Virus record (IMG/VR): IMGVR_UViG_3300005253_000018
Location: 1-49,225 of that record
Reading direction: 5' to 3' (one strand)
Source of the DNA: a virus
Length of the DNA stretch: 49,225 nucleotides
The notes below the pieces were generated by a model. It had not been told where the DNA came from. It worked only from the letters and a program-made list of their open reading frames with translations, and searched no databases. The position numbers and the translations under genes are program-made. Each line of letters opens with the position of its first letter. Position 1 is the first letter of the stretch. Below are positions 10,493-38,158 of the stretch, in pieces.

Positions 10493-12526
10493 ATGAACTG
10501 GCAGAACGTACTACATAGAATAGGCTACCCGGGTACAGCATTGGTGCTGGATTTCGAGACATTCTTCGACGTGGGATACACGCTCAAGACTATGCCTGTA
10601 ATAGAGTTTTTATCCGATGAGCGTTTTGAGTTCACAGGTCTGGGTGACTTTACTATGAAGCATCCGTTCGACGACCCGATTAACGCTGGATTCTCACCAC
10701 CTGATAAGATACAGTACAAGCTTGATTACTTCCAGGAAGAGTACGGCGAAGAGTTCGAGGACTGCACCTTAGTGGGTGCAAATTTACCATTCGATGCCAT
10801 GATCCTGGCTATGAAGTTTGGAATATACCCACGATATACCATCGACATCCTCGATCTCGCCAGATACTTCGATCCGAAGCAACTGGTATCAGTAGCCGAG
10901 CAGGCTAAACGTGCTGGCATGGAACCGAAGGGTGACACTAACGCGTTTAAAGGTTTACATTGGGAGGATATGACGTATGAACAAAAAATTGCCATGTTTA
11001 AATACTGTCGGCACGACATCTACCTCGAAGCAGAATTGTTCAAAACTGAGTTGCCAAGACTTACCAATCCCAAGGTTGAGCTATACCTGGCCCACCACAC
11101 TCTGGAGTTGTTTTCTAAACCCAGGCTTGCCTTTGACTTTCCCCTCGCTCGTGAGCTCCATTATGGCATGACCAAAGAAAAAAACATTGTACTTGCCAAG
11201 ACGAGCTATACTCAGAAAGAACTCAGCGGGACCATTAGTTTCGCCCAGATACTTACAGACAACCTACCCGAGGGCGAGGTCCCGCTGAAGTTCGGCAAAC
11301 CTACCAAGAATCTGATACCTATTACTGGTGAGCATAAGATTATAGCATGTGCTGCTGACGATGAGGGTCGTAAGTTTCTAATGGAACATCCTGATGAGAA
11401 TATCAGGAATATAATCGAAGCAAAGATCGGGATAACATCCTGGCCTAAGTGGGCTAAACGTGTCAAGCGTATGGCTATGATGGCTAAAGCTTTCGACGGT
11501 AAGTTTCCCGTGCCGCTTCGATATTGCGGGGCCCATACGAAACGATGGACTGGTACTGGTAAGGTTAATCCGCTGAATCTCGGTGGTGCCGGACGTGCAG
11601 GATCAGGTACGCATCCGTTGTTATCACAGGTTAGACACTTGCTATTGGCACCTGAAGGTTTCGTACTCGGAATTGTTGATGCTGCACAGATCGAGTGTCG
11701 ATTGCTGGCATGGTTTGCTGGTGAAACTCAGTTATTAGAAGGATTCGCCGAGAGTGATAAAGATACAGAGTATGGAACTCCCGACGTATACAGTAAATTA
11801 GCCATGGACCTGTTCGGAGGGATAATCTATAAGGCTGATAAAGATAGGGAAACCCCAGAGGATTACAAGCAGTTAGTAATCAGGCGTGGCTTTGGTAAAG
11901 ACGGCATTCTCGGATGTGGCTACAGTCTCGGTGCTGACACGTTCTTCGATAGGTGTTATTCTAATCCCGTTCTTCGTCCTATGTTCGATGACGGAACCTT
12001 TACACGTGCATTTATAGAACGATTGATTAAGACGTACCGTACCAAGTATACCCAGATTGTAAAACTCTGGGGTGATTTGGAGAGAGCCTACAAATTTGTA
12101 ACGCGGTATAAAAATGAACCAGTAGAATTAAACCGGGGCCTGAAGTTCTTTGCCGAAGGCCACACCACTGTGATCGAGCTACCATCAGGCAGTAGATTAT
12201 ATTATCCTCATGCCAGCGTATCAGGTACCGGAAAGTGGAGTGATGCTGGTTACGAGCATGGTAAAGTTTACGGTGGTATGCTGGCAGAAAATATTATGCA
12301 GAGTGTATCACGTGAACATCTCATCGGTGTGATAATGGAATGCGAGTCACTACTGCATCACGTGGTTCTGCATACTTATGATGAGGTATGTTGTCTAATA
12401 GACGAGGGTAACGAGAAACGTGCTATGAAAAGTATTATTGCTGCAATGTGCAGAGTTCCGAAGTGGGCAGACGGTGATCTCCCACTTGGGTACGACAGTT
12501 TTACGAGTAAATGTTTTAGGAAATAA
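10493..12526 (+). CDS. polA: DNA polymerase, family A, with 3'-5' exonuclease
   Basis: The 677-residue product has a DnaQ-like proofreading exonuclease (D20-x-E22, D101, Y171/D175), no 5'-3' exonuclease, and the family A polymerase core. Motif A is VDAAQIECRLLAW with D396; motif B is RRGFGKDGILGCGYSLG with R465, K469, L473 and Y477; motif C is HTYDEV with D630-E631. L473 lies at the position equal to Phe762 of E. coli Pol I, and motif C has Tyr where HDE is usual. This is the replicative polymerase of the phage, next to its primase-helicase module. Confidence 0.96.
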   Translation: MNWQNVLHRIGYPGTALVLDFETFFDVGYTLKTMPVIEFLSDERFEFTGLGDFTMKHPFDDPINAGFSPPDKIQYKLDYFQEEYGEEFEDCTLVGANLPFDAMILAMKFGIYPRYTIDILDLARYFDPKQLVSVAEQAKRAGMEPKGDTNAFKGLHWEDMTYEQKIAMFKYCRHDIYLEAELFKTELPRLTNPKVELYLAHHTLELFSKPRLAFDFPLARELHYGMTKEKNIVLAKTSYTQKELSGTISFAQILTDNLPEGEVPLKFGKPTKNLIPITGEHKIIACAADDEGRKFLMEHPDENIRNIIEAKIGITSWPKWAKRVKRMAMMAKAFDGKFPVPLRYCGAHTKRWTGTGKVNPLNLGGAGRAGSGTHPLLSQVRHLLLAPEGFVLGIVDAAQIECRLLAWFAGETQLLEGFAESDKDTEYGTPDVYSKLAMDLFGGIIYKADKDRETPEDYKQLVIRRGFGKDGILGCGYSLGADTFFDRCYSNPVLRPMFDDGTFTRAFIERLIKTYRTKYTQIVKLWGDLERAYKFVTRYKNEPVELNRGLKFFAEGHTTVIELPSGSRLYYPHASVSGTGKWSDAGYEHGKVYGGMLAENIMQSVSREHLIGVIMECESLLHHVVLHTYDEVCCLIDEGNEKRAMKSIIAAMCRVPKWADGDLPLGYDSFTSKCFRK

Positions 12527-13302: not shown

Positions 13303-13527
13303 ATGGAACGTCCAGTAAGGTTATGCACAAAAGATGGACGCAAGGTTGGTAATGCCTTCTGCATAACATGGGTGGCCCGTAAGCCTTTGAAATACGAGGT
13401 CGAGACAGACTTTGGTAACACGCTGATGGTTACTGAGGAGGAGATGCTAGAATTGTGGCGGATCATGAACGACGAGCCGCTTATAACCTATGACCAATGG
13501 AAGAATAGCAAGGAGACGAAGCAATGA
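13303..13527 (+). CDS. Hypothetical protein, 74 aa
   Basis: ATG after AAGGAGATAAT. The product begins MERPVRLCTKDGRKVGNAFC and has a beta-rich first half followed by a helical end (EEMLELWRIMNDE). It overlaps the next gene by four bases (ATGA), so it is translated with the RecB-like nuclease. No family recognised. Confidence 0.65.
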   Translation: MERPVRLCTKDGRKVGNAFCITWVARKPLKYEVETDFGNTLMVTEEEMLELWRIMNDEPLITYDQWKNSKETKQ

Positions 13528-14651
13528 CACAGAATAAACGAGATCACTGGAAACTGTCAGCATCCTGGCTCAAGGCTTTGAAGTCTTGCCCGATGAGATG
13601 CTACTACAGCTACATCAAAGGTATACGTCCGATAGAAGAGACCGAAGCTTTGCGTATGGGAACGAATTGGCATGAGCTACTCGAAGTTTACAGCTTGAAT
13701 AACGATCTCGATGAGGCTGTCGATGCCCTCAACGTAGCATACGAAAACAAGCCGATGTCCAAGACACTGGAAGAGTGGGCTGCTGAACGTGCTAAGCTGG
13801 CGTACAGTTTATCAGGTTACATCTGGAACTACTCAGATGTGGATATGGAAGTCGTAGCCCGTGAGATTCCATTCTCTCTGAAGATTATCAACCCTGATAC
13901 TGGTGCTACCCTGCCCAACGTAGAGATCGTGGGTAAGATAGATAAAATCGTAAAGGTAGATGGCAAGTTTATGATCTGCGAGCACAAGTCCACGAGTAAA
14001 GATGTCAGTGATAGCTCACAGATGTGGGCACACTTACGACTCGACACGCAGACCACATTGTATCAGTATGCCGCGATGCAGTTGAAGATGTCCGGCGAGC
14101 TCGAGCAGTTCGGCATCGGCAAGGATGCTGAGCTAAGTGGTGGACTCTACGATGTATGGCGTAAACCTACGATCAGTCCTAAGATGCTGACTCAGGGTGA
14201 TAGTAAGAAGTTCTTGGAAGATGGCATGTATATGGGTCAGGAGTTTTTTTCCGTACGTATTAAAGATGAGATCAGCGTGGATAGTACACTCGTCGAGTAT
14301 AAACCTGGAGCTAAAGAGGGTACCTTCGCCATCCGCGAGACTGCCGAGATGTACGGTGCCCGGTTGCTGCATGACATCACAGAACGACCAGAGCATTACT
14401 TCGCACGTAAGCCGCTGAATAGAAGCGTCGCTGATATGAAACGGCTGGAGCGTGAACTGTATAGCATCTACCAGAATGCCAGGACCATGAATAAGAACGA
14501 CTCGTGGTATACCTGCGAAGATCAGTGCGAGGCAACGTTCCACTGCTCGTATATTCCGATCTGTTATAATAATGTTAACGTGGATGAATATCTGCCAGAA
14601 GGGTTTAAGAATATCAAAGAGGAAAAGAAAGATGCAGAAAGTAAAGCTTGA
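13524..14651 (+). CDS. RecB/Cas4-like PD-(D/E)XK nuclease, 375 aa
   Basis: RecB-family exonuclease fold: an N-terminal SCPMRCYYSYIKGI block, H50 (GTNWHELLE), D140 (VGKIDKI) and E153-x-K155 (CEHKST), then QTTLYQYAAMQL. The end carries a cysteine group (C-EDQ-C-EATFH-C-SYIPI-C) which, with C22, has the layout of the iron-sulfur cluster of Cas4/AddB-type nucleases. Phage members process double-strand ends for recombination and often sit next to a Sak4 or Redbeta-like protein, as here. Confidence 0.88.
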   Translation: MTQNKRDHWKLSASWLKALKSCPMRCYYSYIKGIRPIEETEALRMGTNWHELLEVYSLNNDLDEAVDALNVAYENKPMSKTLEEWAAERAKLAYSLSGYIWNYSDVDMEVVAREIPFSLKIINPDTGATLPNVEIVGKIDKIVKVDGKFMICEHKSTSKDVSDSSQMWAHLRLDTQTTLYQYAAMQLKMSGELEQFGIGKDAELSGGLYDVWRKPTISPKMLTQGDSKKFLEDGMYMGQEFFSVRIKDEISVDSTLVEYKPGAKEGTFAIRETAEMYGARLLHDITERPEHYFARKPLNRSVADMKRLERELYSIYQNARTMNKNDSWYTCEDQCEATFHCSYIPICYNNVNVDEYLPEGFKNIKEEKKDAESKA

Positions 14652-16953: not shown

Positions 16954-19233
16954 ATGTCACAAAAACCAAAAGCAGCATTAGCCGATCAGCATGACACATA
17001 CCGGGGCAATATGTTCCCCGGTATGTTTGTCTTGCTATCTGAACAACTGGGGGTCAGCGAGGAATCGCTTGTCCGACTGGGCTTGGGGTACAATCCAGCT
17101 AGAAACTGCTGGGTTTTCCCTGAGCGTGATGCAACCGGTGAGATAGTAGGACTAACATACCGGGCCCACGATGGGTCGAAGTTTATGGAACCAGGTAGCA
17201 AGAGAGGACTGACTTATGCGTTCAACCAAGATTTTGAAGTTGGCGAACGGAGATATTCAAGTGGAAAACACAACTGGATTAGAGTCGCCGAGGCTGGTGT
17301 GCTATGTCCTGTCTGTGGACGACCCGATTGGTGCCTCGTGTCTCGGGACGATCCAGCAGACCCCGCAGCAGTTACCTGCACCCGGAATTCTGGAGGTTCT
17401 AAACGCGAACTCAAAAACGGTTATCTACACATACTTAAAGATTCCGGCAACCTTGGCGGCAGAGGTCGAGTCATCTGTGATTCAGAACTTCCTGTTCTCA
17501 TCGTCGAAGGTCAGACTGATACTGCGGCTGCTTTGGATATGGGTTTTGAAGCCGTTGGTAGACCTTCTGCTATCTGCAATACAAGCGAGCTTGAGAAAGT
17601 TGTCAACGGCAAAGACGTAATAATCATTGGGGAGAACGACGAGACCGTTGGCATCCCTGGCATGGAAAAAACGTTTATAAACCTGGAGGGTAAATGCAAA
17701 TCGGTAATTAAGATTCTGCCGCCTGATGGATCGAAAGATTTACGGTCATGGAAAAACCGATTCGATCTCACTGCCGATCAGTTCCTTGAGTACGTAGAAG
17801 AACACGGTGATAAAGGCGTACCCTCTGATATACTACCTGATGCTACTGGTATAACAATCGCAAAGGCATGGATACAACGAGAGCGTACAGTGGATGGATA
17901 CCCGACAGTGCGTAGTTATAAAAATACGTGGGTAGAGTTTAATGATGGTAAGTATAAGCTCGTAGAAAAGGAGATTCTACGTGGTGAGGTCTATAGATTC
18001 TTGGACGATAAATTCTATGTCAATGAGACTAAGCAGGTAAAAGAGATCGTACCGTTCAAATCCAGTAGCAGGTTGGTATCGGACGTGCTCGACGCTTTGT
18101 ATTACTTTGGCCCGATAACCAAGGACCCACCGCTATGGCTAAAGCATAATCGCAGTTTACCTAACCCAGTCGATCTGATACCATTTAAAAATGGCATACT
18201 CGACGTAAGAAAGTATCTGGATGGCGAGATCGAACTGTACGATACCACACCGAACCTGTTTACGTTTACCGCGATACCTTATGAGTTTAATCCCGATCAG
18301 GAATCCTCGATGTGGCTGGATTATCTCGACGATATATTCGATGGTGACGAAGAGAAGATAAATCTGCTTCAAGAATGGTTTGGTTATAACCTGGTTCCTG
18401 ATATGAGCTACGAGAAATTGATGATGTTTATAGGCCGGCCACGTTCGGGTAAAGGTACTGTGCTTCATGCACTTTCAGCTATGCTGGGCAACGAGCAGGT
18501 GTGCAGCACAAGTTTTAAGTCTCTGTGTGGGGATTTTGGATACGAGCCACTGATCGGGAAGTTAGCTGCTTTGCTGGGCGATGCTAAGGTTCCACGCAGT
18601 GCTGATTCTGCTCAGGCCCTGGAAAAGATATTGCAAATAACTGGTGCTGATCCGGTAGGAGTGAATCGCAAAGGGGTACGAGCTCTGCCCCAGGTATACC
18701 TGTCATGTCGATTCACAATGGCGATGAACTTGCTGCCAAACCTACCGGATCAGGCCAATGCTCTGGAACCACGTACTAATCTGATATACTTTAGCAACAG
18801 TTATATAGGTAGAGAGGACCGGACTTTAAAACGTAGGCTACAGAATGAGGCATCGGCTATAGTTCCCTGGGCACTGGAGGGCCTTAGACGGCTCAGGACG
18901 ACCACGGAGTTTACTGTCCCTGAGACATCGGCTAAGACAATGGATGATCTCAGAACCATGACCACACCTGCTTATAGCTTCGTAAAGGAATGTTGTGTTG
19001 CTGAGGGTGAGAACCTGGTGGTACAGCAGGATCAGGTATTTGATGCGTGGGTGGTGTTCTGTGCCAGTCGTAATATGCGAGCCGGATTTAGGCCGTCGTT
19101 TTCTCAAATGCTAATGAGCGTGTGTCCTAATGTGATGACGGATACTATTATAGATAAGAACCGGAGCATACCCGTGTATCGGGGTATAGAATTGTGTGAG
19201 TGGGTTGTTAAAGAAGTTTTAGGGAGGCCATAA
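16954..19233 (+). CDS. TOPRIM primase fused to SF3 (D5-like) helicase, 759 aa
   Basis: Residues 110-145 carry cysteine ligands (CPVCGRPDWC and AVTC), a zinc-finger-like element. A TOPRIM domain follows (LPVLIVEGQTDTAAALD with E185, IIGENDE with E227). The C-terminal half is a superfamily 3 helicase with Walker A FIGRPRSGKGT (G494, K500), a D5-like upstream domain (LIPFKNGILDVRKY, FNPDQESSMWLDYLDDIF) and FTMAMNLLPNLPD motif C. One polypeptide would prime and unwind. It is the core of replication with PolA at 10493. Its first base follows the preceding TAG directly. Confidence 0.95.
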   Translation: MSQKPKAALADQHDTYRGNMFPGMFVLLSEQLGVSEESLVRLGLGYNPARNCWVFPERDATGEIVGLTYRAHDGSKFMEPGSKRGLTYAFNQDFEVGERRYSSGKHNWIRVAEAGVLCPVCGRPDWCLVSRDDPADPAAVTCTRNSGGSKRELKNGYLHILKDSGNLGGRGRVICDSELPVLIVEGQTDTAAALDMGFEAVGRPSAICNTSELEKVVNGKDVIIIGENDETVGIPGMEKTFINLEGKCKSVIKILPPDGSKDLRSWKNRFDLTADQFLEYVEEHGDKGVPSDILPDATGITIAKAWIQRERTVDGYPTVRSYKNTWVEFNDGKYKLVEKEILRGEVYRFLDDKFYVNETKQVKEIVPFKSSSRLVSDVLDALYYFGPITKDPPLWLKHNRSLPNPVDLIPFKNGILDVRKYLDGEIELYDTTPNLFTFTAIPYEFNPDQESSMWLDYLDDIFDGDEEKINLLQEWFGYNLVPDMSYEKLMMFIGRPRSGKGTVLHALSAMLGNEQVCSTSFKSLCGDFGYEPLIGKLAALLGDAKVPRSADSAQALEKILQITGADPVGVNRKGVRALPQVYLSCRFTMAMNLLPNLPDQANALEPRTNLIYFSNSYIGREDRTLKRRLQNEASAIVPWALEGLRRLRTTTEFTVPETSAKTMDDLRTMTTPAYSFVKECCVAEGENLVVQQDQVFDAWVVFCASRNMRAGFRPSFSQMLMSVCPNVMTDTIIDKNRSIPVYRGIELCEWVVKEVLGRP

Positions 19234-22423: not shown

Positions 22424-22552
22424 CACTCTCTTGAATCCTTCGAGTCTATCCAGTCGTACAGTAGCAGGAGGTATGGCACTATTCCCGGTAAATATCCATT
22501 CGTGAATAGCTGTTACCATCTTTTCGATTCGCTCTTCTCTATCGGGTGCCAT
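22334..22552 (-). CDS. Holin-like small membrane protein, 72 aa
   Basis: The product has a charged N-terminal helix (MAPDREERIEKMVTAIHEW), then VRLDRLEGFKRVLCWIGGSF and a single C-terminal membrane helix (FTIVVLGGGLKLCFVLF). This order, N-terminal soluble helix and C-terminal membrane anchor, matches XhlA-like phage membrane proteins placed near lysis genes. The ATG overlaps the stop of the 1441-residue protein (TAATG). It is the last gene of the late strand. A holin role is likely but not proven. Confidence 0.55.
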   Translation of the reverse strand: MAPDREERIEKMVTAIHEWIFTGNSAIPPATVRLDRLEGFKRVLCWIGGSFFTIVVLGGGLKLCFVLFGKPS

Positions 22553-25500
22553 TATCTTTTCCTTCTTCTTCCGGTTGTTCTGGTTCGTCTACCTTTGCCA
22601 GCGTTATTCTTAGATTCTAATGCCCACTCGCTGTAGATTAACCTACGCCAATCTTCCGTGTCACCTTTGTATAAGTCAATAGAGCCTTCCACAAAATCTA
22701 TCGGTGCATCGGGGATACGACCGGTAGCTGCTCCGATAGCACGGATTCCATGTTTTACTACGCCAGGTATATTCCTAGACTGTGCTGCTTTACCGAACTC
22801 GTCGAACGATATACCAGCTATGCTACTGAGTCCACCGTACCCGCGTATCGCACTGTCCACTACTCTGCCGGCTACGAATAATGATCCAAGCGGATAGGTT
22901 GCAAGATCGAATGCTACATCCCCCCAATCCTCTGGTGGTCCACCGCGACCAATAAATCCATAGGCCATGGCTGGAATAATATATGAGAACGCTATCCGGT
23001 GTGACATCAGGCCGATACCGATCTTCTTATTCTTAGCTTCGCCGAGAACGTTAACCCACCAGAAATTACCGTTCTTATTAACCTGGTTCTGAAATGTCGT
23101 TAGAGTTTTTGCTACTGTACCGCCGCGGAAAAATGCCGGCAGGTCCTTAGCGTTTGCAGACGGCTGAGTTTTCCTGGTCCACTCGTCAGCATAGGCTAAA
23201 GCTTCAGTTTCATTTAACCTGGTCTTTACACCGTTGATATAGACACCTGATTTAGCTGAGTCATACAGGGATTTCCACGCTATGGTTGTGGTGTGCCTGT
23301 CCATCCATGATACCCATCCTAGAGCTTTCTCATCGAATACTTTATTACGCAGTATTTTATCTTTGGATGATTTCTTTATCCTTCTAAGATCACGGTCGAA
23401 ACTACGATTACGCATCTGATCGGACCTGCTGAATACGAACTCTTCCATAGTTTTGTAGCCGCCGTCTTTGCCGAAACTTGCCAGGGCTATGTTCTTCGGT
23501 ACCATGCTCATCATAGCAGGATCGACAGAAACAGCGTTGGACATCGAGAGTGTTTGCCTGGCTACCGATGGAATTTTCCAGCCGATGGCGTACACGATAC
23601 CATTCTTCCTGAGCCCTAGCATCAGACGATCTATGCTGGATGCCATGGATTTATTATCTACAGTAGGAGCAAAACCCATAGCAGTATGGCGAATCCAATC
23701 TTTAACCAGACCCACACCACGTCCATGGGTCTTGTCATTCAGGTTTTTCTTGAATCCCTTGTCGTTGAATATCTTACCCAGCTTCGATACCGTAGGTGCG
23801 AAGTGGATGTACCGTTCCACACGCGGCATGTTATACATGAACACATCGAACGCATTAATCCTTACTGGCTGAGCCGCACCTTCGGTACGTTCCATAACTT
23901 CCTGCGGAGTGGTAAGAACAGGTACCTGATTCTTCTGGCCGACTGTATCTTCTGTGAACTGTGTCAGGAAATCAGTAGCTTCTTCAAGCTGACCTGATAG
24001 CGAATACAGTGGAAAATAATTTTTCTCTATCTTCATGTCCCTGCCGGCTGCTAAGAAGTATGACTGGGCAAGTCGTTCACCCTGAGCTTTGTATTTGTCC
24101 ATCATAAACTGGCCGATCTTCTTTTCCTGCTCAGTCATCAGGCCGATAGCTTCGTTTACAGCGGCTTCAGGATCAGCGAACTTTGCAAAATTACCACCGA
24201 TCAGATGTCTCAAACCGTTAGGATTTTGACTTAGCATCCAGATACCGATCCGATCTCCAGGTGTTACACCCAACTGTTGCTCTTTTTGCAACTGTTGTTC
24301 TTCAGCCAGTAACGTAGCTGGTTCGGTCATCATGCGTTTAAGATCACGGGTACCGATTTCTTTATTCATAAATGCTATCAGGTCCTCGATCTGTATATTA
24401 CCGTCTACACCGGCAGCGGCATCGGCCTGATTCATAGGGTCCCAGAATGTCTTGGTAAATTCAGGACCCAGTGATGCAAAGATATTCTCTGGTAAGAGCA
24501 GTCCATCACGGTACCATGATAGACCTTGCTCTACTAATTGCTTGAGTGACCTGCCGCGATCCACGCCGTCTATAAGTGTCTCCAACTGGCCAGTAGCGAT
24601 CTTATCCAATGCGATGTTTAAGTCATCGGTTGCTAATTCTGTAGAATTAAGCGAGCTAACACGATCAGCGTTAAATCTTTTGTCATTGGTTGTCCTAACA
24701 TTGCCCTTCTTATCTACGCTGCGTACAGTTAGCGGACGCTCTACACCTTTGATCTTTACCCGCTGCCCGGCTACAGGTTTCTTAGAATTTATTGCCAATA
24801 CGAGCTCGCTGATAAACGACGATACCTCAGCCTTATTCATCTGAGTTGTCGATCCTTTACCGGTAACTTTCTTAGCAAGGTCACTCTTAGCCTTACCATC
24901 CATACCTAACTGCTTGGATAGGATAGCTGCACGAGCTTTCTGTCCGTTAGCAGCAGGTTCTGCCGCCCATACTTCGGCTGCTACACGAGCACCCTCACCC
25001 TCAGCGGCGAAGAGTATCTTACCATCCGGCGATATAACTTTAGAGCTCGTAAACATACCACGCTCTTCACCGTCTATTATTAGATTTGTCGCAAAATCAA
25101 CGGCTTGCTGTCCGTCTACTGCTTTACCCTGTGGGGGTTGGGCGAGAAACAGGGCTTCGTCTTTCACTTTGAACGCCACATTTTTGCCCATTCTATCCGT
25201 CGAAAAACTTACAGCATTAGGATTGCGTTGTTGAATAGCTTTAAGTTGGCTGGCAATAACTCCCACATCAAGACCTGTTTCCTTTGACGTAGTATCATAA
25301 TTAAGAAATCTAACTGCACCACTTGTTTTTGTTTTCCAAACATCCAATAATGATTCTGGTGTACCGCTTGTGTCAGCAGGTATTACTGCTGGCAAATGAA
25401 TAGCACTTTGAGTAACCTTTTTTCCTCCAACTGACTGAGTAGATTGAAAAACAGCACCCTTCCCAGATGGTATCACTTCCCCTGTAACGGCCTCAGCTTC

Positions 25501-26877
25501 AGGCGGTTTCTCTACTTCGACTTCAGTAACTCTCGTCGGAGTAGCCAGGTCCTCAGCATCAGCAGCATCCATCAGGTCTTTCTCTTCGGGCTGTAGCTGT
25601 GTATTTAAATCTTCTTTAGATACCTGGTCTACAACTGCTTGCTGTTTCTCTTCCGGCGTGGCAGCTTCTTCTCCTTCAGGTCGTGTTTCCTCTGCCTTTT
25701 TATCGGCTATACCTTCAACACCGTTTACTGTAACATTACTACGCTCGGCCTGATCTACAGCAAGGGCAATCTCTTTATCCAAGCGTACATCAGGATTCTT
25801 TTCTTTCTTCTTTACAGCCTTGTCTACTACCTTACGAGCCTGTTCTTCAGTGAGTGATGTCGTAGAGGTAACTCGATCCACCACGACACCGACACGTTTA
25901 TTATATTCCTGTACTCCCATACCGCCACGGCTTACATCTATTACAGCACCCGGTGCCGGTAACAATACCATGGATTGTACGGATTCTTTGAACGTATCGC
26001 CAAGCCTTGTGAACCTTTGCAGGAAGGCTTCTTTGTCAAACTCTACACCCTGATCGCTCATGTATGATGCTACGTCCTCTGCTGCTATCTGGATGCCTTC
26101 TTGTGCTACTTCTTCTAATACCTCTGATGTAAGCGTGCCGCCGAATTTCTTAGCCGCCATGCCTAAAACTTTAAGTATGGACTTTTGTACGATCTTCTGG
26201 GCACCCTTACGAAGCCCCGGTGTAGCCTGTCCCACCTGTAACATCTCGATCAAGGCGTATGGCATGGCCGCGATGCTGGCCACGGTCTTGGCTATCTCTG
26301 GATCGTTACCAGCTTCCATCATGTTCATCATCATATTACCAGCACCCTGCTTATACCAGAAATCAGTCATGCCAACTTTGAATCCAAACCCAAGTCCAGC
26401 TACTGCACCTGGTGCTGCACCAGCACCACCGGCTAGAGAACCAAGTCCAGCACCAGCCAGCATACCTACCATGCCCTCTAGTGAACCTTCTTGCAATCCA
26501 CGCAATACAGATTTAAGAGTGCCAGCATTCTTTGCTATGGTCTCCATGATAAGACCACCATCAAGCGGGTCCTCCCTGGCTTCTTCCCGCATGGCTGATC
26601 GTTGCTGCATGATACTCTTTAGTTTATTCATGTCACCTTGAATAAATGCTGCATCATAAGCTGCTATATCAAGGTCTATGTTCTGTCCACTACGTTTATA
26701 CGATTTAGTTATATCCTTGAAGCCGGCTTTAAGATCAGTAGGACTATCAGCAAACAGTCGTGATACGAATGATTCACTCTCAGCTTCGATCTTCTCATCG
26801 TTATCGGCTGGACCTATCAATCGTAAACTAGGTCCTTTTGGTATTCCATTTTTATCTAGCAATCTGAGCGTTGCCAT
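22552..26877 (-). CDS. Very large internal virion/ejection protein, 1441 aa
   Basis: The largest gene. Residues about 125-180 are a Gly/Ala-rich membrane-active stretch (MVGMLAGAGLGSLAGGAGAA then PGAVAGLGFGFKVGM). Residues 330-470 are charged and probably disordered. The C-terminal 600 residues resemble the large polyvalent-protein-associated domain at the end of big podovirus virion proteins (DVAFDLATYPLGSLFVAGRV, GYGGLSSIAGISFDEFGKAAQ). Such proteins are ejected with the DNA. The tail is basic (GRRTRTTGRRRKR). TAATG overlap with the previous gene. Confidence 0.72.
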   Translation of the reverse strand: MATLRLLDKNGIPKGPSLRLIGPADNDEKIEAESESFVSRLFADSPTDLKAGFKDITKSYKRSGQNIDLDIAAYDAAFIQGDMNKLKSIMQQRSAMREEAREDPLDGGLIMETIAKNAGTLKSVLRGLQEGSLEGMVGMLAGAGLGSLAGGAGAAPGAVAGLGFGFKVGMTDFWYKQGAGNMMMNMMEAGNDPEIAKTVASIAAMPYALIEMLQVGQATPGLRKGAQKIVQKSILKVLGMAAKKFGGTLTSEVLEEVAQEGIQIAAEDVASYMSDQGVEFDKEAFLQRFTRLGDTFKESVQSMVLLPAPGAVIDVSRGGMGVQEYNKRVGVVVDRVTSTTSLTEEQARKVVDKAVKKKEKNPDVRLDKEIALAVDQAERSNVTVNGVEGIADKKAEETRPEGEEAATPEEKQQAVVDQVSKEDLNTQLQPEEKDLMDAADAEDLATPTRVTEVEVEKPPEAEAVTGEVIPSGKGAVFQSTQSVGGKKVTQSAIHLPAVIPADTSGTPESLLDVWKTKTSGAVRFLNYDTTSKETGLDVGVIASQLKAIQQRNPNAVSFSTDRMGKNVAFKVKDEALFLAQPPQGKAVDGQQAVDFATNLIIDGEERGMFTSSKVISPDGKILFAAEGEGARVAAEVWAAEPAANGQKARAAILSKQLGMDGKAKSDLAKKVTGKGSTTQMNKAEVSSFISELVLAINSKKPVAGQRVKIKGVERPLTVRSVDKKGNVRTTNDKRFNADRVSSLNSTELATDDLNIALDKIATGQLETLIDGVDRGRSLKQLVEQGLSWYRDGLLLPENIFASLGPEFTKTFWDPMNQADAAAGVDGNIQIEDLIAFMNKEIGTRDLKRMMTEPATLLAEEQQLQKEQQLGVTPGDRIGIWMLSQNPNGLRHLIGGNFAKFADPEAAVNEAIGLMTEQEKKIGQFMMDKYKAQGERLAQSYFLAAGRDMKIEKNYFPLYSLSGQLEEATDFLTQFTEDTVGQKNQVPVLTTPQEVMERTEGAAQPVRINAFDVFMYNMPRVERYIHFAPTVSKLGKIFNDKGFKKNLNDKTHGRGVGLVKDWIRHTAMGFAPTVDNKSMASSIDRLMLGLRKNGIVYAIGWKIPSVARQTLSMSNAVSVDPAMMSMVPKNIALASFGKDGGYKTMEEFVFSRSDQMRNRSFDRDLRRIKKSSKDKILRNKVFDEKALGWVSWMDRHTTTIAWKSLYDSAKSGVYINGVKTRLNETEALAYADEWTRKTQPSANAKDLPAFFRGGTVAKTLTTFQNQVNKNGNFWWVNVLGEAKNKKIGIGLMSHRIAFSYIIPAMAYGFIGRGGPPEDWGDVAFDLATYPLGSLFVAGRVVDSAIRGYGGLSSIAGISFDEFGKAAQSRNIPGVVKHGIRAIGAATGRIPDAPIDFVEGSIDLYKGDTEDWRRLIYSEWALESKNNAGKGRRTRTTGRRRKR

Positions 26878-27719: not shown

Positions 27720-28841
27720 CTATTTAGTTACCCACGCTCCGTTTTCATAAAAGTCAAACGCATTGGTTGTGCTGTTATAGACTATCATACCATTAACACC
27801 CGTCACGGCATCGCGTTGTGCAGTAGTTAGCCTGGTTATTAGCAACGCACCATTATTGGAATATAACTCTAGCAACGCATCCTCTGTCAACGGGGTGTTG
27901 TACCCCCCGCCTATTCTTAGTCTTGAAGAGGTGGCATGATATTTGCCATATAACACTTTGCCAATATTAATGCAATTACTCGGTTGGCCGTTAACATGGT
28001 CCACACCATTACCAATTAGGATGTTATCATCTCCCATGGTAACAGCATTGCCACAGTTGTACCCTATTAGAATGTTGTCATCATTGCTTACCATATTATT
28101 ACCGCTGTAGGCACCAATGATAATATGTTGACTCCCATAAGTAAGACTGATTCCGCTGTTGCATCCTATAATAGTAGAAGCAAAGCTAGACAACGCTGAC
28201 TCTGATCCAACTTGATCGCCTATCATTACGCAATCATACGGGGTAGTCGATGCTGCTCCAGCACCATAACCTATGAATACATTATTCTCACCTGTCGCGG
28301 ACAGGGCATCCCCTATTGATATGTTGTCCTTAGTAGTATCGGCATCTATGATCACACCAGCTATAATAACAGTACCCGTAAGTGTTGGTGATGCTAATGG
28401 GGCCTTTAGGTCAAGTGCTGTCTGTGTAGCCGTGCTGACTAGTTTATCAAGATCACTGGTATTGTCAGCGTTTCCAAGTCCAACATTAGCAGATGTTACA
28501 CTATGCGGATTACCAGTAATATCCCCGAGATGAGAGTCGATGCTGGCATGTGAAGTCTCTGATGTTAAGTAACTCTGTAAGTCACTGATCTGAGATTCCG
28601 TTATGCTCACGCCAGTAGACTTATCCCAAGCTGTAAACACTGGATCAGACTCTGACCCACCAGCTGGCAGATTAGTTAAACCACTACCGTCACCTATAAA
28701 TGCCGTTGCAGTTACGTTTCCACTTTCATCTAAAAGAAACGTATCAGGTATGACAAATCGAGTTTCATCTGCCTTAACGCAGAGTATCCGTCCCGCACAA
28801 CCGGCCAACCCTTGACCACAGGCTACATTTATTCCACTCAT
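27720..28841 (-). CDS. Tail fiber with YadA-like beta-roll repeats, 373 aa
   Basis: Residues 49-60 carry FIGDGSGLTNLPAG, a common fiber motif. Residues about 170-290 hold repeats of the trimeric-adhesin head type (NNVFIGYGAGAAS, STIIGCNSG, QHIIIGAYSGN, DNILIGYNCGN, DNILIGNG). The end reads LLITRLTTAQRDAVTG then YNSTTNAFDFYENGAWVTK, common at the C-terminus of receptor-binding fibers. It would be a trimer that recognises the host surface. The ATG overlaps the stop of the preceding fiber gene. Confidence 0.82.
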   Translation of the reverse strand: MSGINVACGQGLAGCAGRILCVKADETRFVIPDTFLLDESGNVTATAFIGDGSGLTNLPAGGSESDPVFTAWDKSTGVSITESQISDLQSYLTSETSHASIDSHLGDITGNPHSVTSANVGLGNADNTSDLDKLVSTATQTALDLKAPLASPTLTGTVIIAGVIIDADTTKDNISIGDALSATGENNVFIGYGAGAASTTPYDCVMIGDQVGSESALSSFASTIIGCNSGISLTYGSQHIIIGAYSGNNMVSNDDNILIGYNCGNAVTMGDDNILIGNGVDHVNGQPSNCINIGKVLYGKYHATSSRLRIGGGYNTPLTEDALLELYSNNGALLITRLTTAQRDAVTGVNGMIVYNSTTNAFDFYENGAWVTK

Positions 28842-31880: not shown

Positions 31881-33920
31881 TTACTTTCTCCTTCCAGATT
31901 TTGCTATATCAACTTGTATACTTTCTATGCTAAAACTTTCATCCACGTTTTCATTTTTTAGCTTCAGACCTATCGCCCCGCCTTGAATTTTCTGTCGTAG
32001 CGAAGATTTTAATCCATCATTAGTATAAACTTTTGAAACAATAGGATCGGCCCCGGCCAGTATATTATCGACCACCCTCTCAGATGTCTGATCTTTAAAT
32101 ATATCTACCGTTATACCGTCTGTACCAGTACCCATCTTCAGCGATAACTCGTTTAACTTTAACTGCTCTCTGGCACTTTCTCCAAGATTAAGGGGGCCTA
32201 TGGTGAACCAGCTATTTATAGCGTTACTTCCATCGTCGGATTTAGCTGAGTCATCAAACTTCCTTATGAATCCATCTTTACATCCAAGTAGCAATCCACG
32301 ATCATCAGCTTCTCTTCCGTTGTAGTACAGGGCTGATGTAGTAACGTGGTCGTCGATATAATCCTCCGGGAAGATACTCCCGGTTCTTAGATCAATCCAT
32401 AGCGTGGTTTTCCATAAGCCGTCAAGCTGTGAAGCCGTAAGTGAAATCCCATTTCTTAACTTATCGAAGGCCATAGTTATTCTATCGGTCCTTCTGTTTA
32501 GTTTCAGGTTGCTTATCAACTTAGGTATGCTGTCCTTGGTCAAATTAGTAGGTGGTGCGGCACTGACTATAGCCTCGGATGATAAACCATAGATACCATC
32601 CATTCCTACGAAGTATAGATTATTGCTGTCATCGTAACACCATGCCGTGTTACTGAATATTCCAGTTGACTTAGACAAGTTTGTAAGCACACCGCCAGCA
32701 GCAGGATCGGACCGCATGACCCATACCTGGTCCAGAGTACCGAGCACCTGATAGTAATCCTTGTACGGTGTGAACGCTGTTAATTCATCACCTATCAAAC
32801 CAGCTTTAGTAGTAGCAGCAGATATGGGAGTCTGATTATCATCCTGGTTTACCAGCCAATCCAGCGGATCACCTGATCTGGATGCGAACCACAAGTGTGG
32901 GTTTTCCACGCTATTCAAGAATATCCTACCAAATGATAACGAACTTATGTTGGCACCACCGCTCGGTAGTCCGGTCTTACCGGCAGTTTCTGTCCATGGC
33001 AACCAATGTGGCGGTGCCTGAACTCCGGGAAACCCTTTGGTAGTTTCTGTAACCGTAACTGTAGTTACACCAGTTAAAGCTGATACATCGAACACCGCTG
33101 TAGCAACATCGGATAGCGATGAGTCAAATGTAAACGTTAATCCGCCAACTCCGATGTCGAATGTAGTCCCGCCGACTGTTACGTTGCCAGTCCCTATCAG
33201 GCTCAGTAATTCTAATGCTGCCTCGATGTCACCCGTGGTAGCTTCCCAGTCCAGATCAGATGTTTCTTCACCCTCTATGGTTATCGTGAACGTTCCAGCA
33301 GATGATGTAGAATCAGGTACACTGGTCTGTATCTCATCTACCACTGTGGGGGTCATGGTTCCACCATTCTCCCCGGTTATTACGTCGGTGGTATTAAACT
33401 CTGTAGTGGTAGTCCTATAGAATAGCTGTATTATACCACTACCTACAGCGGATGGTGTCATGGTAGCACCAGACGTAACTCCTACCACCGGATTTACAGC
33501 ATTAAACGTAGTACCCTTAACTGGGAACACGTACAGTGCTTGCTGAGTCTCGGTTCGTTGCACGTATACGAATCCTTCAGCGTTGCTTCCAGCCTGAGTG
33601 ACACGTTCACCCTCCTGATATGTGCCGACTATCGTTGCGTTGCCATCGTACAATCGTTTGTCAGGATTCTCATCGAATACACCCACGGCTTCGGTAGTAG
33701 CCTGAGCTACGAGCTCACCTTGAACGTATGCTACGGTGGGGGTACCGTTAATCTTAGTATTAATCATGTCGAGCTTGTGGTACCCGTTGTTAAGTATCGA
33801 CCTGCCATCGGTGAAATATACTTTTTGATACGCCGGTTCTACTGCTATCAGTCCGTCAGTATCGAAGTCTCCGACTGTAAATCCATGCTTTGTTATAAGC
33901 CTCGTAAGGTCAATAGCCAT
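31881..33920 (-). CDS. Tail nozzle-like protein with inserted beta domain, 679 aa
   Basis: Starts MAIDLTRLITKHGFTVGDFD; residues 310-420 (SSLSFGRIFLNSVENPHLWF, ASRSGDPLDWLVNQ) match the signature of podoviral tail nozzle/stabilisation proteins, where the chain forms a beta-propeller at the tip. Residues about 204-301 are a separate domain (AGTFTITIEGEETSDLDWEA then EAALELLSLIGTGNVTVGGT) that is also found in the adaptor at 37034-38158. The insert would be displayed outside the tube. Assignment as nozzle is by pattern. Confidence 0.75.
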   Translation of the reverse strand: MAIDLTRLITKHGFTVGDFDTDGLIAVEPAYQKVYFTDGRSILNNGYHKLDMINTKINGTPTVAYVQGELVAQATTEAVGVFDENPDKRLYDGNATIVGTYQEGERVTQAGSNAEGFVYVQRTETQQALYVFPVKGTTFNAVNPVVGVTSGATMTPSAVGSGIIQLFYRTTTTEFNTTDVITGENGGTMTPTVVDEIQTSVPDSTSSAGTFTITIEGEETSDLDWEATTGDIEAALELLSLIGTGNVTVGGTTFDIGVGGLTFTFDSSLSDVATAVFDVSALTGVTTVTVTETTKGFPGVQAPPHWLPWTETAGKTGLPSGGANISSLSFGRIFLNSVENPHLWFASRSGDPLDWLVNQDDNQTPISAATTKAGLIGDELTAFTPYKDYYQVLGTLDQVWVMRSDPAAGGVLTNLSKSTGIFSNTAWCYDDSNNLYFVGMDGIYGLSSEAIVSAAPPTNLTKDSIPKLISNLKLNRRTDRITMAFDKLRNGISLTASQLDGLWKTTLWIDLRTGSIFPEDYIDDHVTTSALYYNGREADDRGLLLGCKDGFIRKFDDSAKSDDGSNAINSWFTIGPLNLGESAREQLKLNELSLKMGTGTDGITVDIFKDQTSERVVDNILAGADPIVSKVYTNDGLKSSLRQKIQGGAIGLKLKNENVDESFSIESIQVDIAKSGRRK

Positions 33921-34786
33921 TATTCAAAGTCCTCATAGTATACACTTCCCTCATCGCTTACCGCCACCAGTTTATTCCCGAATCTACCTGATCCCTTTTT
34001 AAGATTAACAGCACCGGTTGAAGTGTTAGGCTCGTACCATAACTTAGTTTCCTCATCCCATACTTTACTAGGGTCATAGTTAGCCGTTCTGTCTGACGGG
34101 AAAAAATCCGCCGGGTTCATAATCAGAGAATTAACACCACGGCCTTGAGCGTATAATGCTGCACGTTCCGACGATAATAACTCACGACTAAATACCATAA
34201 CCCCATCTATCAAGCCTTCAAAGTTTCTGCTCGATCCTGAGTCGGTTGCACCTATATGAAGATCATCTGTTAGACCAGCAAACCCCGTAGATAATACGCT
34301 TCCACCGAGAACGTTATCTACGTAAATTTTAGCGGTTCCATCTGAATCATTAGTTAGTATATACTGATGCCATACATCCCTTATTATGTTATTAACGTTA
34401 GGGATGGTTTTACCGTTTATCCTAATAGCAATATCCTCTACTGCCAGTGATGATCTCAAGAGCAAAAGCTGTAATATATTATCCTTGACTGCGAATATCC
34501 TGCCATCTTGATGAACAAATGTAGGATTATCCTTGGCCCATAAGACTATACTAAATTCTCCACTTGGTATTATGGCCTGTGGTGCTACCACAAAAGGTGA
34601 TCCATCAGAATAATCGAAGGCTCCGTTGCCGGTAAAACTGAGATCAGAGTGTAGGTCATCAGAGTTACCACCGGATACGGCGGCAACATTCTGGCTGGTG
34701 CCATCCAGCACGACAGTAGTAGCCAGGTCATCGTCTAATTTATAGAATGCAGTAGTTATGGAAGTTAGATCAATTTTATTAGCCAC
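33920..34786 (-). CDS. LamG/concanavalin-like tail protein, 288 aa
   Basis: Residues 30-210 form a LamG-type jelly-roll (FSIVLWAKDNPTFVHQDGRI, WHQYILTNDSDGTAKIYVDN, NFEGLIDGVMVFSRELLSSE, the canonical L-I-D-x-V-x-V end). The family usually binds sugar or protein surfaces. The C-terminus ends GSGRFGNKLVAVSDEG then SVYYEDFE and is nearly the same as the end of the neighbouring protein at 34786. Likely exposed on the virion. Confidence 0.78.
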   Translation of the reverse strand: MANKIDLTSITTAFYKLDDDLATTVVLDGTSQNVAAVSGGNSDDLHSDLSFTGNGAFDYSDGSPFVVAPQAIIPSGEFSIVLWAKDNPTFVHQDGRIFAVKDNILQLLLLRSSLAVEDIAIRINGKTIPNVNNIIRDVWHQYILTNDSDGTAKIYVDNVLGGSVLSTGFAGLTDDLHIGATDSGSSRNFEGLIDGVMVFSRELLSSERAALYAQGRGVNSLIMNPADFFPSDRTANYDPSKVWDEETKLWYEPNTSTGAVNLKKGSGRFGNKLVAVSDEGSVYYEDFE

Positions 34787-36213
34787 TATATATCCTCCAC
34801 GTATATAGCCCTGTGACCTACTGCTATAAGCTTGGAATTATATCTTCCACCACCACCTGCCAGAGAACCAAAGTCTAATCCCGATCCTATTAAACTGGCC
34901 CCGGCCAATTCGGTACCGGTTATCTCGAACTTTAATTCATCATCAATACCGCTGTCACTTTCTATACCAAAGGCTTGATCGGACCATACCAGGCCAAACT
35001 TGGACCCGACATCAGATCGTAACGGTGGGAATGTGTTGTCGGCGTTAAATGGCATACTGGTTGCAGCCATAAATATTGCCTCATCAGGAGCACCGACTTG
35101 TAACTGTTCGGTCCACTGCCATGTTGATCCAACTTTATTCATCAAGATATAGTTAAGATTCAAACTCGATCGATGGTCAGAATAAGTTATGGCCAAGTCG
35201 TCGTTGTCTAGCAATGTAAGTATAGGGAACGCCATAAATATACCGAAGGTCAAACCATTCATTACAGTGGGTCCAGTTATTTTGTTACCACCACTATCGT
35301 ATTCTACAAATGTTGTAACCTCCAATGCACTGTCAGTATCATTCGTTATAATAAGTATAGTGCCGTTAGCAGTTATAGAACCTGCCGGACCGCGTTCTCC
35401 TGTAGAATTGAATCCTTCCAAGTTGCTGCTAACAGCCGCTATAGTCTGCGTTATGGTCCCCGCCGAGTTTATATAGGATAGACGGGGAAACACAGGGTCA
35501 GTAATGTCTTGCTTGGAATATAACAGGACACCTGTACCGCCGCTAAATGCGTGACATTCCATTCTACCACCAGCAGGATTTAACAACGTAGCATCAGCCT
35601 TAACTATGGAAGTTAGATCGTTATTGTATACTCTATACTTCACGGTATCGTTGGTACCATTGGTAGTTATATCTATGGTGGAATATGGTATAACTATGTT
35701 ACCGCCTGTAAGCTGTGCTACTTTGAATCTCCCGTATGTTTCAAAAGAGTACCCACCATTGTCATCGCTAACATATAAGTCCGATGTTATATCCGTTGTA
35801 CTTAATAGCTTTAATGCTGGTGACAATATCTTGGCCCTAAGAGTAGCTGTTAACGCTTTATTACCAGGTGGTGGTGGAGTAGCTAGATTAGCCTTTGCAA
35901 ATATGGAATAAACTACGAGCAATCTGCCATCGTTCAGTATCAACATATCAGCCCACGATATACCAGCGTCTGTTAACGAGCTAACCAAACCTGACGTGTA
36001 TAATTCTTCGCCCAGGAAGTCCTCCAGCACTATCTCTTTCTTGAAAGTTCCAAAGAAATCATGTTGCCTAAGAACCAGCTTTCCACCTTCTGTAGTGTTA
36101 GGACTTGGTGACGCATCTGTAGCAGTGGTGGAATAGACCATGGCCAGACTGCCATCGTTCATACCGATAGCTGATAGGGCTGTCTTATCTGTACCAATAG
36201 TAACTTCAGACAT
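34786..36213 (-). CDS. Beta-propeller-like tail protein, 475 aa
   Basis: Repeats of the type DGSLAMVYSTT, DGRLLVVYS and DDLAITYSDHR (spacing about 90-250 residues) are those of a sialidase-like or Asp-box-less propeller blade. The C-terminal segment (GGGGRYNSKLIAVGHRA then IYVEDI) is shared with the next protein (33920). Together with the 77-residue gene before it, the gene may form a split version of a larger tail protein. Function is likely structural or receptor binding. Stop and next ATG overlap. Confidence 0.68.
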   Translation of the reverse strand: MSEVTIGTDKTALSAIGMNDGSLAMVYSTTATDASPSPNTTEGGKLVLRQHDFFGTFKKEIVLEDFLGEELYTSGLVSSLTDAGISWADMLILNDGRLLVVYSIFAKANLATPPPPGNKALTATLRAKILSPALKLLSTTDITSDLYVSDDNGGYSFETYGRFKVAQLTGGNIVIPYSTIDITTNGTNDTVKYRVYNNDLTSIVKADATLLNPAGGRMECHAFSGGTGVLLYSKQDITDPVFPRLSYINSAGTITQTIAAVSSNLEGFNSTGERGPAGSITANGTILIITNDTDSALEVTTFVEYDSGGNKITGPTVMNGLTFGIFMAFPILTLLDNDDLAITYSDHRSSLNLNYILMNKVGSTWQWTEQLQVGAPDEAIFMAATSMPFNADNTFPPLRSDVGSKFGLVWSDQAFGIESDSGIDDELKFEITGTELAGASLIGSGLDFGSLAGGGGRYNSKLIAVGHRAIYVEDI

Positions 36214-36214
36214 A

Positions 36215-36448
36215 TTATGCCACCGGTTCTACATAGGTTATAGCTATCTGTTTCATCAGTGTAACTGGATTATCCCCTACTATCCTGTCATCTGATGCCT
36301 TAGATAATCCTGGACGCTGGCCACCGCGTATGCGTTCTTCTTCCGTATCAAACGGTCTCACGTTACGCAAACTAGGTGAAGTAAGAGGGGGCTGACCCTC
36401 TACAGCCGCCCCCTCGTTCCATCCTTTTATGGGAAACTTAATCTCCAT
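36215..36448 (-). CDS. Short N-terminal-type tail protein piece, 77 aa
   Basis: The whole product matches, by memory, the start of larger phage tail proteins: FPIKGWNEGAAVEGQPPLTS, then PSLRNVRPFDTEEER, RGGQRPGLSKA and VTLMKQIAITYVEP. In relatives the sequence continues into a long tail protein, whereas here it stops with TAA, one base before the ATG of the 475-residue propeller gene. It is either a separate virion protein or the front half of a split gene. Confidence 0.6.
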   Translation of the reverse strand: MEIKFPIKGWNEGAAVEGQPPLTSPSLRNVRPFDTEEERIRGGQRPGLSKASDDRIVGDNPVTLMKQIAITYVEPVA

Positions 36449-36465
36449 GGTGCAACCTCGCTATA

Positions 36466-37032
36466 TTACCTCTCAGTATTCTCGAAGTAAACGAGATCAG
36501 AACGATAAACTACTTCCACGCCGTAGAAGTTAGCTGCATCAGTAGAATGAGCACTGGTAGTAAGATCAAAGTGTAACGCATCACCAGGTTTGCAACCAAG
36601 GTCGCTTGCGTCTATTTCGATGTAACCAGCTTTAGCCGTATTATTATTCATCGCAGCGGAGATAGTTGGATCGAGGTCAGATGTAAGTGCTACTCCGGCT
36701 CTCTTGCGGAACATGGCAGCGTCCATCGTGGGCGTGTTGGTATCGCCGGCAGAGTTACATAAGAACCTGATCTTTAACTCGTCGTTGTTTACATCATAGT
36801 CACGGGGCACATTAAATACCAGCGATCCGAAATCGGTAGTACCACTTGCACTCTGCACACCCTCGAAGTTTGTTTCCAGCGATGCACGCAGTGGTGCAGT
36901 CGATCCCGTAAGGATCAGACCACCTGATGTACGAAGAGTATTTAGATTTATACCCTGGATTACTCTCTTGAAACCGTTACCTGTGATAACTCCCTCAAGG
37001 TTCTTTAAAAATGTTGCACCATTTAAACTCAT
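36466..37032 (-). CDS. Structural protein, 188 aa
   Basis: Starts MSLNGATFLKNLEGVITGNG and is beta-rich, ending DAANFYGVEVVYRSDLVYFE. The middle part (FGSLVFNVPRDYDVNNDELK then IRFLCNSAGDTNTPTMDAAM) has the look of a jelly-roll head or neck protein. It lies between the adaptor and tail proteins, with a start two bases after the adaptor stop. The conserved LHFDLTTSAH strand near the end suggests an outer-capsid or neck fiber. Confidence 0.62.
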   Translation of the reverse strand: MSLNGATFLKNLEGVITGNGFKRVIQGINLNTLRTSGGLILTGSTAPLRASLETNFEGVQSASGTTDFGSLVFNVPRDYDVNNDELKIRFLCNSAGDTNTPTMDAAMFRKRAGVALTSDLDPTISAAMNNNTAKAGYIEIDASDLGCKPGDALHFDLTTSAHSTDAANFYGVEVVYRSDLVYFENTER

Positions 37033-37033
37033 G

Positions 37034-38158
37034 TTACGCTCCTGAATTAATGTTAGTTGTGTCTACGTTATTCCAGAACCTCGTAGGTCCGGTCTTTTTT
37101 AATGTATTCAAACTTCCCAATGTTCTCGGTGCCGATCTTAGATCAATCACTTGTGCATCAGGTAATGCTATCTGCCTGTAATATGCCACCCAGTCTGTCT
37201 CAGCAGTAAGTCCCTCGATCTCCATCATAGTACGAGCCTTGCACGCGGCAAGAACTACCTCGTCGAACCTATAACCTGCCGGATGAAGATCGGTACCAGA
37301 TGACAGTGCATCGAAGAAAATCGTGTGTGGAAATACCACGGTACGTATAGCCTGTGGATCAGGGTATACCAATATGTCAAACCGTCTAACGGTCTCACTT
37401 GGAATTATCGCAGCCATCCACGGATCAGCAGTAATGCTTGAGTTCTCTCTAGCCTGTCTGATGGTGGCTTCGTTGGTCCATTGCATGCGTGGCCCGACAT
37501 TGGTATTCTTAGCATACGTGATTTCGCCGTCCGGCGATCCACCGAACGTATCAGGTAGAATATATCGTGCCACTTCCAGTAAGCCCCGCTGAGTCTCAGA
37601 CACGGTTATAACGGTAGTAGTAGTAGTGCTTGTTACGTCGAAGGTGACATCAGCAACGTTACCGAGTGAATCATCGAAAGTCAGGGTTAATCCTGTGGTC
37701 GCGGTGTTAAAAGTCACCCCTCCTACTGTGATATTCCCGGTACCGATGCCTGTAAGTAGCTCCAGTGCCGACTGAATTGTGCCAGTTGTTGCATCAAATG
37801 CAAGGGCTGAAGTAGTCTCAGTCCCCAGGGTAATAGTATACGTACCAGCAGTAGCTACAAGATCAGGTATGCACAACTGGTTATCTTCTATGCTGCCTAC
37901 ACTGGTAGATGAGGAACCTGATGGATCAAGCTGCACGTATAGAAGCTGTCTCATCCACTGCCAACCCTTTGTAGGAGAATTGGAGATGAACATCCTGATG
38001 GCCCTGTTCACTATGCCCTGAGACAGATCAAGATCGTGGGCATCAGTGGGAGTGACAGCTATACCATCACCGCCAGTACCATAGCTCGCTATACCAGCAA
38101 GCCTGGCTACCTCAAGTGTAAGGTCATCAAACGTTAATGCTGTGTTCGGTTCGGCCAT
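37034..38158 (-). CDS. Head-tail adaptor with inserted beta domain, 374 aa
   Basis: The N-terminal 60 residues (MAEPNTALTFDDLTLEVARL, IVNRAIRMFISNSPTKGWQW) and the C-terminal half (LPDTFGGSPDGEITYAKN, RRFDILVYPDPQAIRTVVF, DEVVLAACKARTMMEIEG) are typical of podoviral head-tail connectors of the gp11 kind. Residues about 103-190 are a foreign-looking domain (AGTYTITLGTETTSALAFDA, QSALELLTGIGTGNITVGGV), closely matching the insert in the nozzle-like protein at 31881-33920. Overlaps the preceding stop by one base (TAATG). Confidence 0.75.
   Translation of the reverse strand: MAEPNTALTFDDLTLEVARLAGIASYGTGGDGIAVTPTDAHDLDLSQGIVNRAIRMFISNSPTKGWQWMRQLLYVQLDPSGSSSTSVGSIEDNQLCIPDLVATAGTYTITLGTETTSALAFDATTGTIQSALELLTGIGTGNITVGGVTFNTATTGLTLTFDDSLGNVADVTFDVTSTTTTTVITVSETQRGLLEVARYILPDTFGGSPDGEITYAKNTNVGPRMQWTNEATIRQARENSSITADPWMAAIIPSETVRRFDILVYPDPQAIRTVVFPHTIFFDALSSGTDLHPAGYRFDEVVLAACKARTMMEIEGLTAETDWVAYYRQIALPDAQVIDLRSAPRTLGSLNTLKKTGPTRFWNNVDTTNINSGA

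Follow-up and report, generated by a model that had tools for sequence, protein, structure and literature searches.

A promiscuous alpha/beta virion module in two predicted tail proteins, the adaptor and the nozzle, of an uncultured podovirus

Ig-like domains (Big_1, Big_2, I-set and FN3) are promiscuous decorations of phage particles with a proposed role in adhesion, and the five classes described, in tail fibre, baseplate, tail tube, capsid and Hoc proteins, do not include adaptors and nozzles (PMC9022992). In phage Douge, Ig-like domains on the capsid and the tail tube bind mycobacterial surface glycans (PMC13033339). In T7 (PMC6702177) and SU10 (PMC9509320) the adaptor touches the tail fibres through its fibre dock, and the nozzle, a propeller, carries inserted small domains that form the tip; those of the SU10 nozzle are Ig-like (PMC9509320). 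The long-tailed siphophage Bxb1 carries the module described here in its major capsid protein (PDB 9D9W/9D9X), in its tail tube protein gp19 (9D93/9D94) and, in three copies, in its tail tip cage protein gp23 (9D93). The virus analysed here resembles Bxb1 in having the module in several different proteins of one virion, and differs from it in being a podovirus with the module in the adaptor and the nozzle.

The window, by which we mean the whole stretch of DNA analysed, is an entire virus record of 49225 bases. A first-pass annotation had proposed that the adaptor and the nozzle-like protein of this virus share a pattern of about 90 residues, and the pattern is real and lies where it was placed: the two copies are 57% identical over 89 residues without a gap (BLASTP E=6e-22), with a local alignment score of 253 compared with 49.7 +/- 7.8, and at most 86, for 1000 shuffles of one copy. 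The next-best score among all other ORFs of the window was 58, and when the module was searched against the whole record exactly two places came up, adaptor and nozzle (Table 1). The extent earlier derived from the motif was right as to location and wrong as to its start, the module beginning upstream of the quoted motif at a (D/N)E(I/V)Q strand. The label of a beta domain was also mistaken, since the module is alpha/beta, with roughly seven strands and one helix in about 90 residues, and the conserved ATTG..I..ALELL stretch is predicted as a nine-residue helix in both proteins (adaptor residues 125-133 and nozzle residues 229-237 of the AlphaFold2 models). The strands are in register between the two models at an offset of about 104 residues, with the same strand order and the one helix, and the module region is confident in both. 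Homology of the two modules, as first proposed, is supported by sequence, by the matching predicted secondary structure and by the match of both models to Bxb1 gp23.

Table 1. Positions of the adaptor, the nozzle and their module segments in the window.
Feature	Position	Strand	Basis
Adaptor (head-tail connector) gene, 374 aa	37034..38158	-	AlphaFold2 model matches solved adaptors
Adaptor slot, about residues 78-196, other module in relatives	37571..37927	-	alignment of relatives and typing of slot content
Module copy in adaptor, core residues 104-192	37583..37849	-	57% identity to nozzle copy; strands and helix of model
Nozzle gene, 679 aa	31881..33920	-	model matches SU10, Pa223, VP1, A4 and T7 nozzles
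Nozzle segment absent from L206, about residues 195-299	33024..33338	-	pairwise alignment with L206 nozzle
Module copy in nozzle, core residues 208-296	33033..33299	-	identity to adaptor copy; pLDDT ~78-97 across module
Two degenerate type C (GDILTQ-like) repeats, nozzle residues about 61-194	33339..33740	-	weak profile matches

The earlier identification of the two host proteins as adaptor and nozzle was supported by predicted fold matches, using AlphaFold2 models built from alignments of relatives. The adaptor model is good (mean pLDDT 85.4); it has the helix bundle with a beta dock of a T7 gp11-like protein and matches the solved adaptors of cyanophage A4, Pa223, SU10 and VP1, and some of its BFVD matches carry the name tail tubular protein A. 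The nozzle model is weaker (mean pLDDT 70.2), residues 1-190 and 295-346, that is the N-terminal part and the surroundings of the module, being mostly of low confidence. Its best matches are the nozzles of SU10, Pa223, VP1, A4 and T7 (E 4e-11 to about 4e-7), and its beta-propeller core and platform are those of a T7 gp12 or SU10 gp17-like nozzle, so that the core of the window protein is predicted to share the nozzle fold of T7 gp12 and of the SU10 nozzle with its inserted Ig-like nozzle domains. By the predicted folds of adaptor and nozzle, the module would accordingly be carried by virion structural proteins. By sequence, a profile of nozzle relatives gave no match in the PDB, and the whole adaptor or the whole nozzle as query found nothing among cultured phages.

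Several other genes of the record were noted. The product of the gene between the nozzle and a 475-aa protein (33920-34786, minus strand) contains a Laminin_G_3 domain (concanavalin A-like; Pfam, E 1e-13) and is another candidate surface-binding protein. A tail-fibre-like protein (27720-28841, minus strand) has many matches to tail fibre and minor tail entries of PHROG around the motif NPHSVTSANVGLGNADNTSD. A protein of 1441 residues (22552-26877, minus strand) matches phrog_9880, a large family whose function is not known, at its C-terminus; its match to DUF6861 falls short of the curated cut-off. On the plus strand, opposite to the structural genes, lie DNA polymerase, exonuclease and primase-like genes (10493-12526, 13524-14651 and 16954-19233).

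The window copies matched Bxb1 tail tip cage gp23 in a single-sequence search, and a profile of related viral copies gave three matches in gp23, one in the major capsid protein and one in the tail tube. In Foldseek the adaptor model found the same Bxb1 chains as the profile search (probability 1.00) and the nozzle model found gp23 (E 4.7e-3, probability 1.00), and a Bxb1-type virion module of the same fold is thereby predicted in both proteins, each by its own structure search. The adaptor model also matched, less well than with Bxb1, a chain of the tail sheath-tube of the contractile-tail cyanophage A-1(L) (PDB 8KEE; rank 23, E 0.019, 21% identity); with 109 columns this match is about as long as the module, on which it would presumably lie. 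Designed pentatricopeptide repeat proteins among the PDB sequence matches were set aside, because they covered only query residues 20-55 around the helix, a helix-motif match, and because neither the profile search nor the structure matches listed contained an entry of this kind.

The module is like the Ig-like phage domains (PMC9022992) in being small, promiscuous and common to unrelated virion proteins, with weak adhesion as a proposed role. Unlike them it contains a conserved helix, found in both models where a classical Ig-like domain would be an all-beta sandwich, and no Ig-like Pfam or NCBIfam family matched the window proteins or the other carriers. Neither Pfam nor NCBIfam was found to hold any family for the module, in the window proteins or in other carriers. 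A profile search with the module did not recover the Douge domains as sequence relatives, so glycan binding by the window module would be an analogy with that phage.

With a related module sequence as query, 806 cultured-phage records matched, of which 745 bear names referring to Mycobacterium, and among the matches listed the module stood under major tail, minor tail and tail sheath genes and in some hypothetical proteins; the window's nozzle module alone as query found nothing among cultured phages. In uncultured viruses 46 ORFs besides the two window genes carried it in the fetched loci, some of these being the same record fetched twice, and the carriers match tail sheath, tail terminator, major capsid, head decoration and major tail families. 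Four of these loci (L086, L097, L111 and L123) have the module in two or three genes of one virus. The first-pass annotation had also pointed to a related pattern in bacterial proteins, and it was found in many large ones, with up to 11 copies, especially in Planctomycetota; in actinobacteria the module occurs in shorter proteins, which may be prophage genes. The module is a known, promiscuous and widespread virion module, and Bxb1 is an earlier case of a single virion with the module in several of its proteins.

For comparison of the two sites, relatives of the capsid protein were collected into 80 loci, many with adaptor and nozzle downstream as in the window, and a second search with the nozzle core as query gave 30 loci. 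In the capsid-derived relatives, the adaptor has some small module in the stretch that runs from the N-terminal helices to the LPxxFGG strand. By profile, the 61 readable relatives comprise 41 with type A (GTGxGExAxVTDYT), 19 with type B (SMExKxIxV) and a single one, L023, with type C (GDILTQxTSGA), the adaptor of L047 being cut off and left out of the typing; none of the 61 has the window's module at this place. In the nozzles of capsid-derived relatives, type C precedes the APPHW core in 27 of 38 and no recognised module does in the other 11, and the window's module is found in none of the 38. Both window copies had been described as inserted, and both are indeed added or substituted relative to most relatives; the adaptor copy, however, is a swap at a standing slot and not a simple insertion, since nearly every relative has a different module there. 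The relative nearest by nozzle core (56%), L206, has an empty nozzle site, and the degenerate type C repeats that lie upstream of the module in the window nozzle have the same doubled arrangement in L206. The window's module does occur in the nozzle of L228, at the same junctions and together with a type A module, and the L224 nozzle also has a type A module. Among relatives, neither copy is thus the common state, L228 has one (in the nozzle only) and the window alone has both.

Across all ORFs of the family loci, type A was found in 56 adaptors, type C in one and the window's module in one, and the corresponding numbers of nozzles are 2, 48 and 2; these counts are not independent because some loci are the same record fetched twice. 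No other family ORF matched type A, type C or the window's module in this profile scan, in which the 'other' matches of the window's module came from the unrelated loci L085-L088, and type B had one marginal match in another ORF (L071). A module search of the whole records of twelve relatives found none; it had no positive control, and the profile scan is therefore the stronger evidence. In L023 the type C modules of adaptor and nozzle are 53% identical over 77 residues, with 35% identity at third positions. That an unusual adaptor module would always be shared with the virus's own nozzle, as in the window and L023, was judged a weak regularity, as type C is present in most nozzles anyway. At the level of sequence, the comparison among relatives establishes the two slots and the exchange of their contents, and two podovirus slots with several module types exchanged between them appear to be new, none having been found described in a limited literature search.

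Some further arrangements were observed in the relatives. A type C-like stretch (SVGETVVQGTSNATG) seems, by eye and without profile support, to split the type A module of the L206 adaptor (L206:2219-3745), which suggests nesting of modules. Two nozzles (L049:10038-11834 and L050:14636-16432) have two tandem type C modules. A second adaptor slot, with a type A-like module, follows a YPxP...F strand in L003, L008, L014, L065 and others, and its module is missing from the window adaptor and from type B adaptors. A record of 39898 bases (L005), whose capsid protein, portal and scaffold are 100% identical to those of the window, is probably from the same species; it ends before the adaptor and has no match to the adaptor or nozzle gene.

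The first-pass annotation held that the module could have been copied recently within the virion, and the codons contradict this. Identity between the two copies is 53.6% for the DNA as a whole and 24.7%, the level of chance, for third codon positions, and of 51 identical residues only 14 are encoded by the same codon. Recent duplication was ruled out on this comparison, and with silent positions at chance the copies either diverged long ago or were acquired separately. An old duplication, in which the module was probably first taken up in the nozzle and subsequently reached the adaptor slot by recombination within the same lineage, comes somewhat short of an even chance in our judgement; it concerns origin and is compatible with the function proposed below. 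Each window copy has the other as its most similar sequence (55%, trimmed columns), and the two group together in two trees and with the L228 nozzle copy in a third. Support in these trees is weak, however (94/56 in one, SH-aLRT 64 in another, order unresolved in the tree with L228), and saturated silent positions have left no trace of copying in the DNA. The closest nozzle relatives of L228, moreover, are without the window's module, so the nozzle slot has gained or lost it more than once or has lost it repeatedly, which also speaks against a single old duplication.

The explanation that we consider probable as a whole is that both segments are copies of one promiscuous virion module, standing in two podovirus tail slots whose contents are exchanged and which serve to decorate the surface. 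The adaptor slot, flanked by the second N-terminal helix and the LPxxFGG strand, would by analogy with T7 and SU10 belong to the fibre-dock region. The nozzle slot, near the N-terminus and just before the APPHW core, would be analogous to the tip domains inserted in the beta-propeller of T7 and SU10, and the insertion sites may be equivalent; the tip position is drawn from this analogy, in a part where the nozzle model is of low confidence. Filled by types A, B and C in relatives, the slots would receive modules from each other and from outside by in-frame recombination. With a dodecameric adaptor ring on the portal, a stoichiometry taken from T7, the neck would bear about 12 module copies and the surroundings of the tail tip 6, none of them part of the DNA-conducting core. 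Their role may be weak extra adhesion to host-surface polymers, shaping of the fibre dock and tip, or both. We infer in this way their exact structural position, surface exposure, copy number and recombination route as well as adhesion.

It is possible, though we are inclined to doubt it, that the role is mainly architectural, the modules building the tail-fibre dock and the nozzle tip, for instance to hold appendages, with no receptor role. Docks of adaptor and nozzle do hold fibres in T7, SU10 and P-SCSP1u, an insertion domain of the baseplate wedge holds the long tail fibre in phage A-1(L) (PMC10966104), the module is part of the tail-tip cage in Bxb1, and none of the 61 readable relatives has an empty adaptor slot; yet unrelated modules swap at the slots, and no recognised module is present in that of 11 of the 38 nozzles, which argues against a specific fitted interface. 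The modules could also be tolerated passengers, small domains able to fold on their own that recombination has carried into permissive loops and from which the virus gains little. This agrees with the several unrelated modules in the same loops and with the duplicated type C copies, but is improbable given a recognised module in the adaptor slot of 61 of 61 readable relatives and a motif kept across widely diverged viruses, both of which suggest selection.

Within the preferred reading of a promiscuous module in two standing slots, a narrower proposal is that the adaptor and nozzle genes form a two-slot display system, between which at least three unrelated module types (A, C and the window's) are specifically exchanged, type B being confined to adaptors; to this we would give even odds. 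If true, the virus could re-dress the surfaces of the neck and the tail tip and leave the DNA-conducting core as it is. Pfam and NCBIfam have no family for the module, although cultured phages carry it widely and three solved Bxb1 proteins include it; naming it would annotate parts of many virion proteins. The exchange of this and other modules between two defined podovirus tail sites is a testable system, and natural variants with one, both or neither copy would allow the contribution of tail decoration to adsorption to be compared on a common core.
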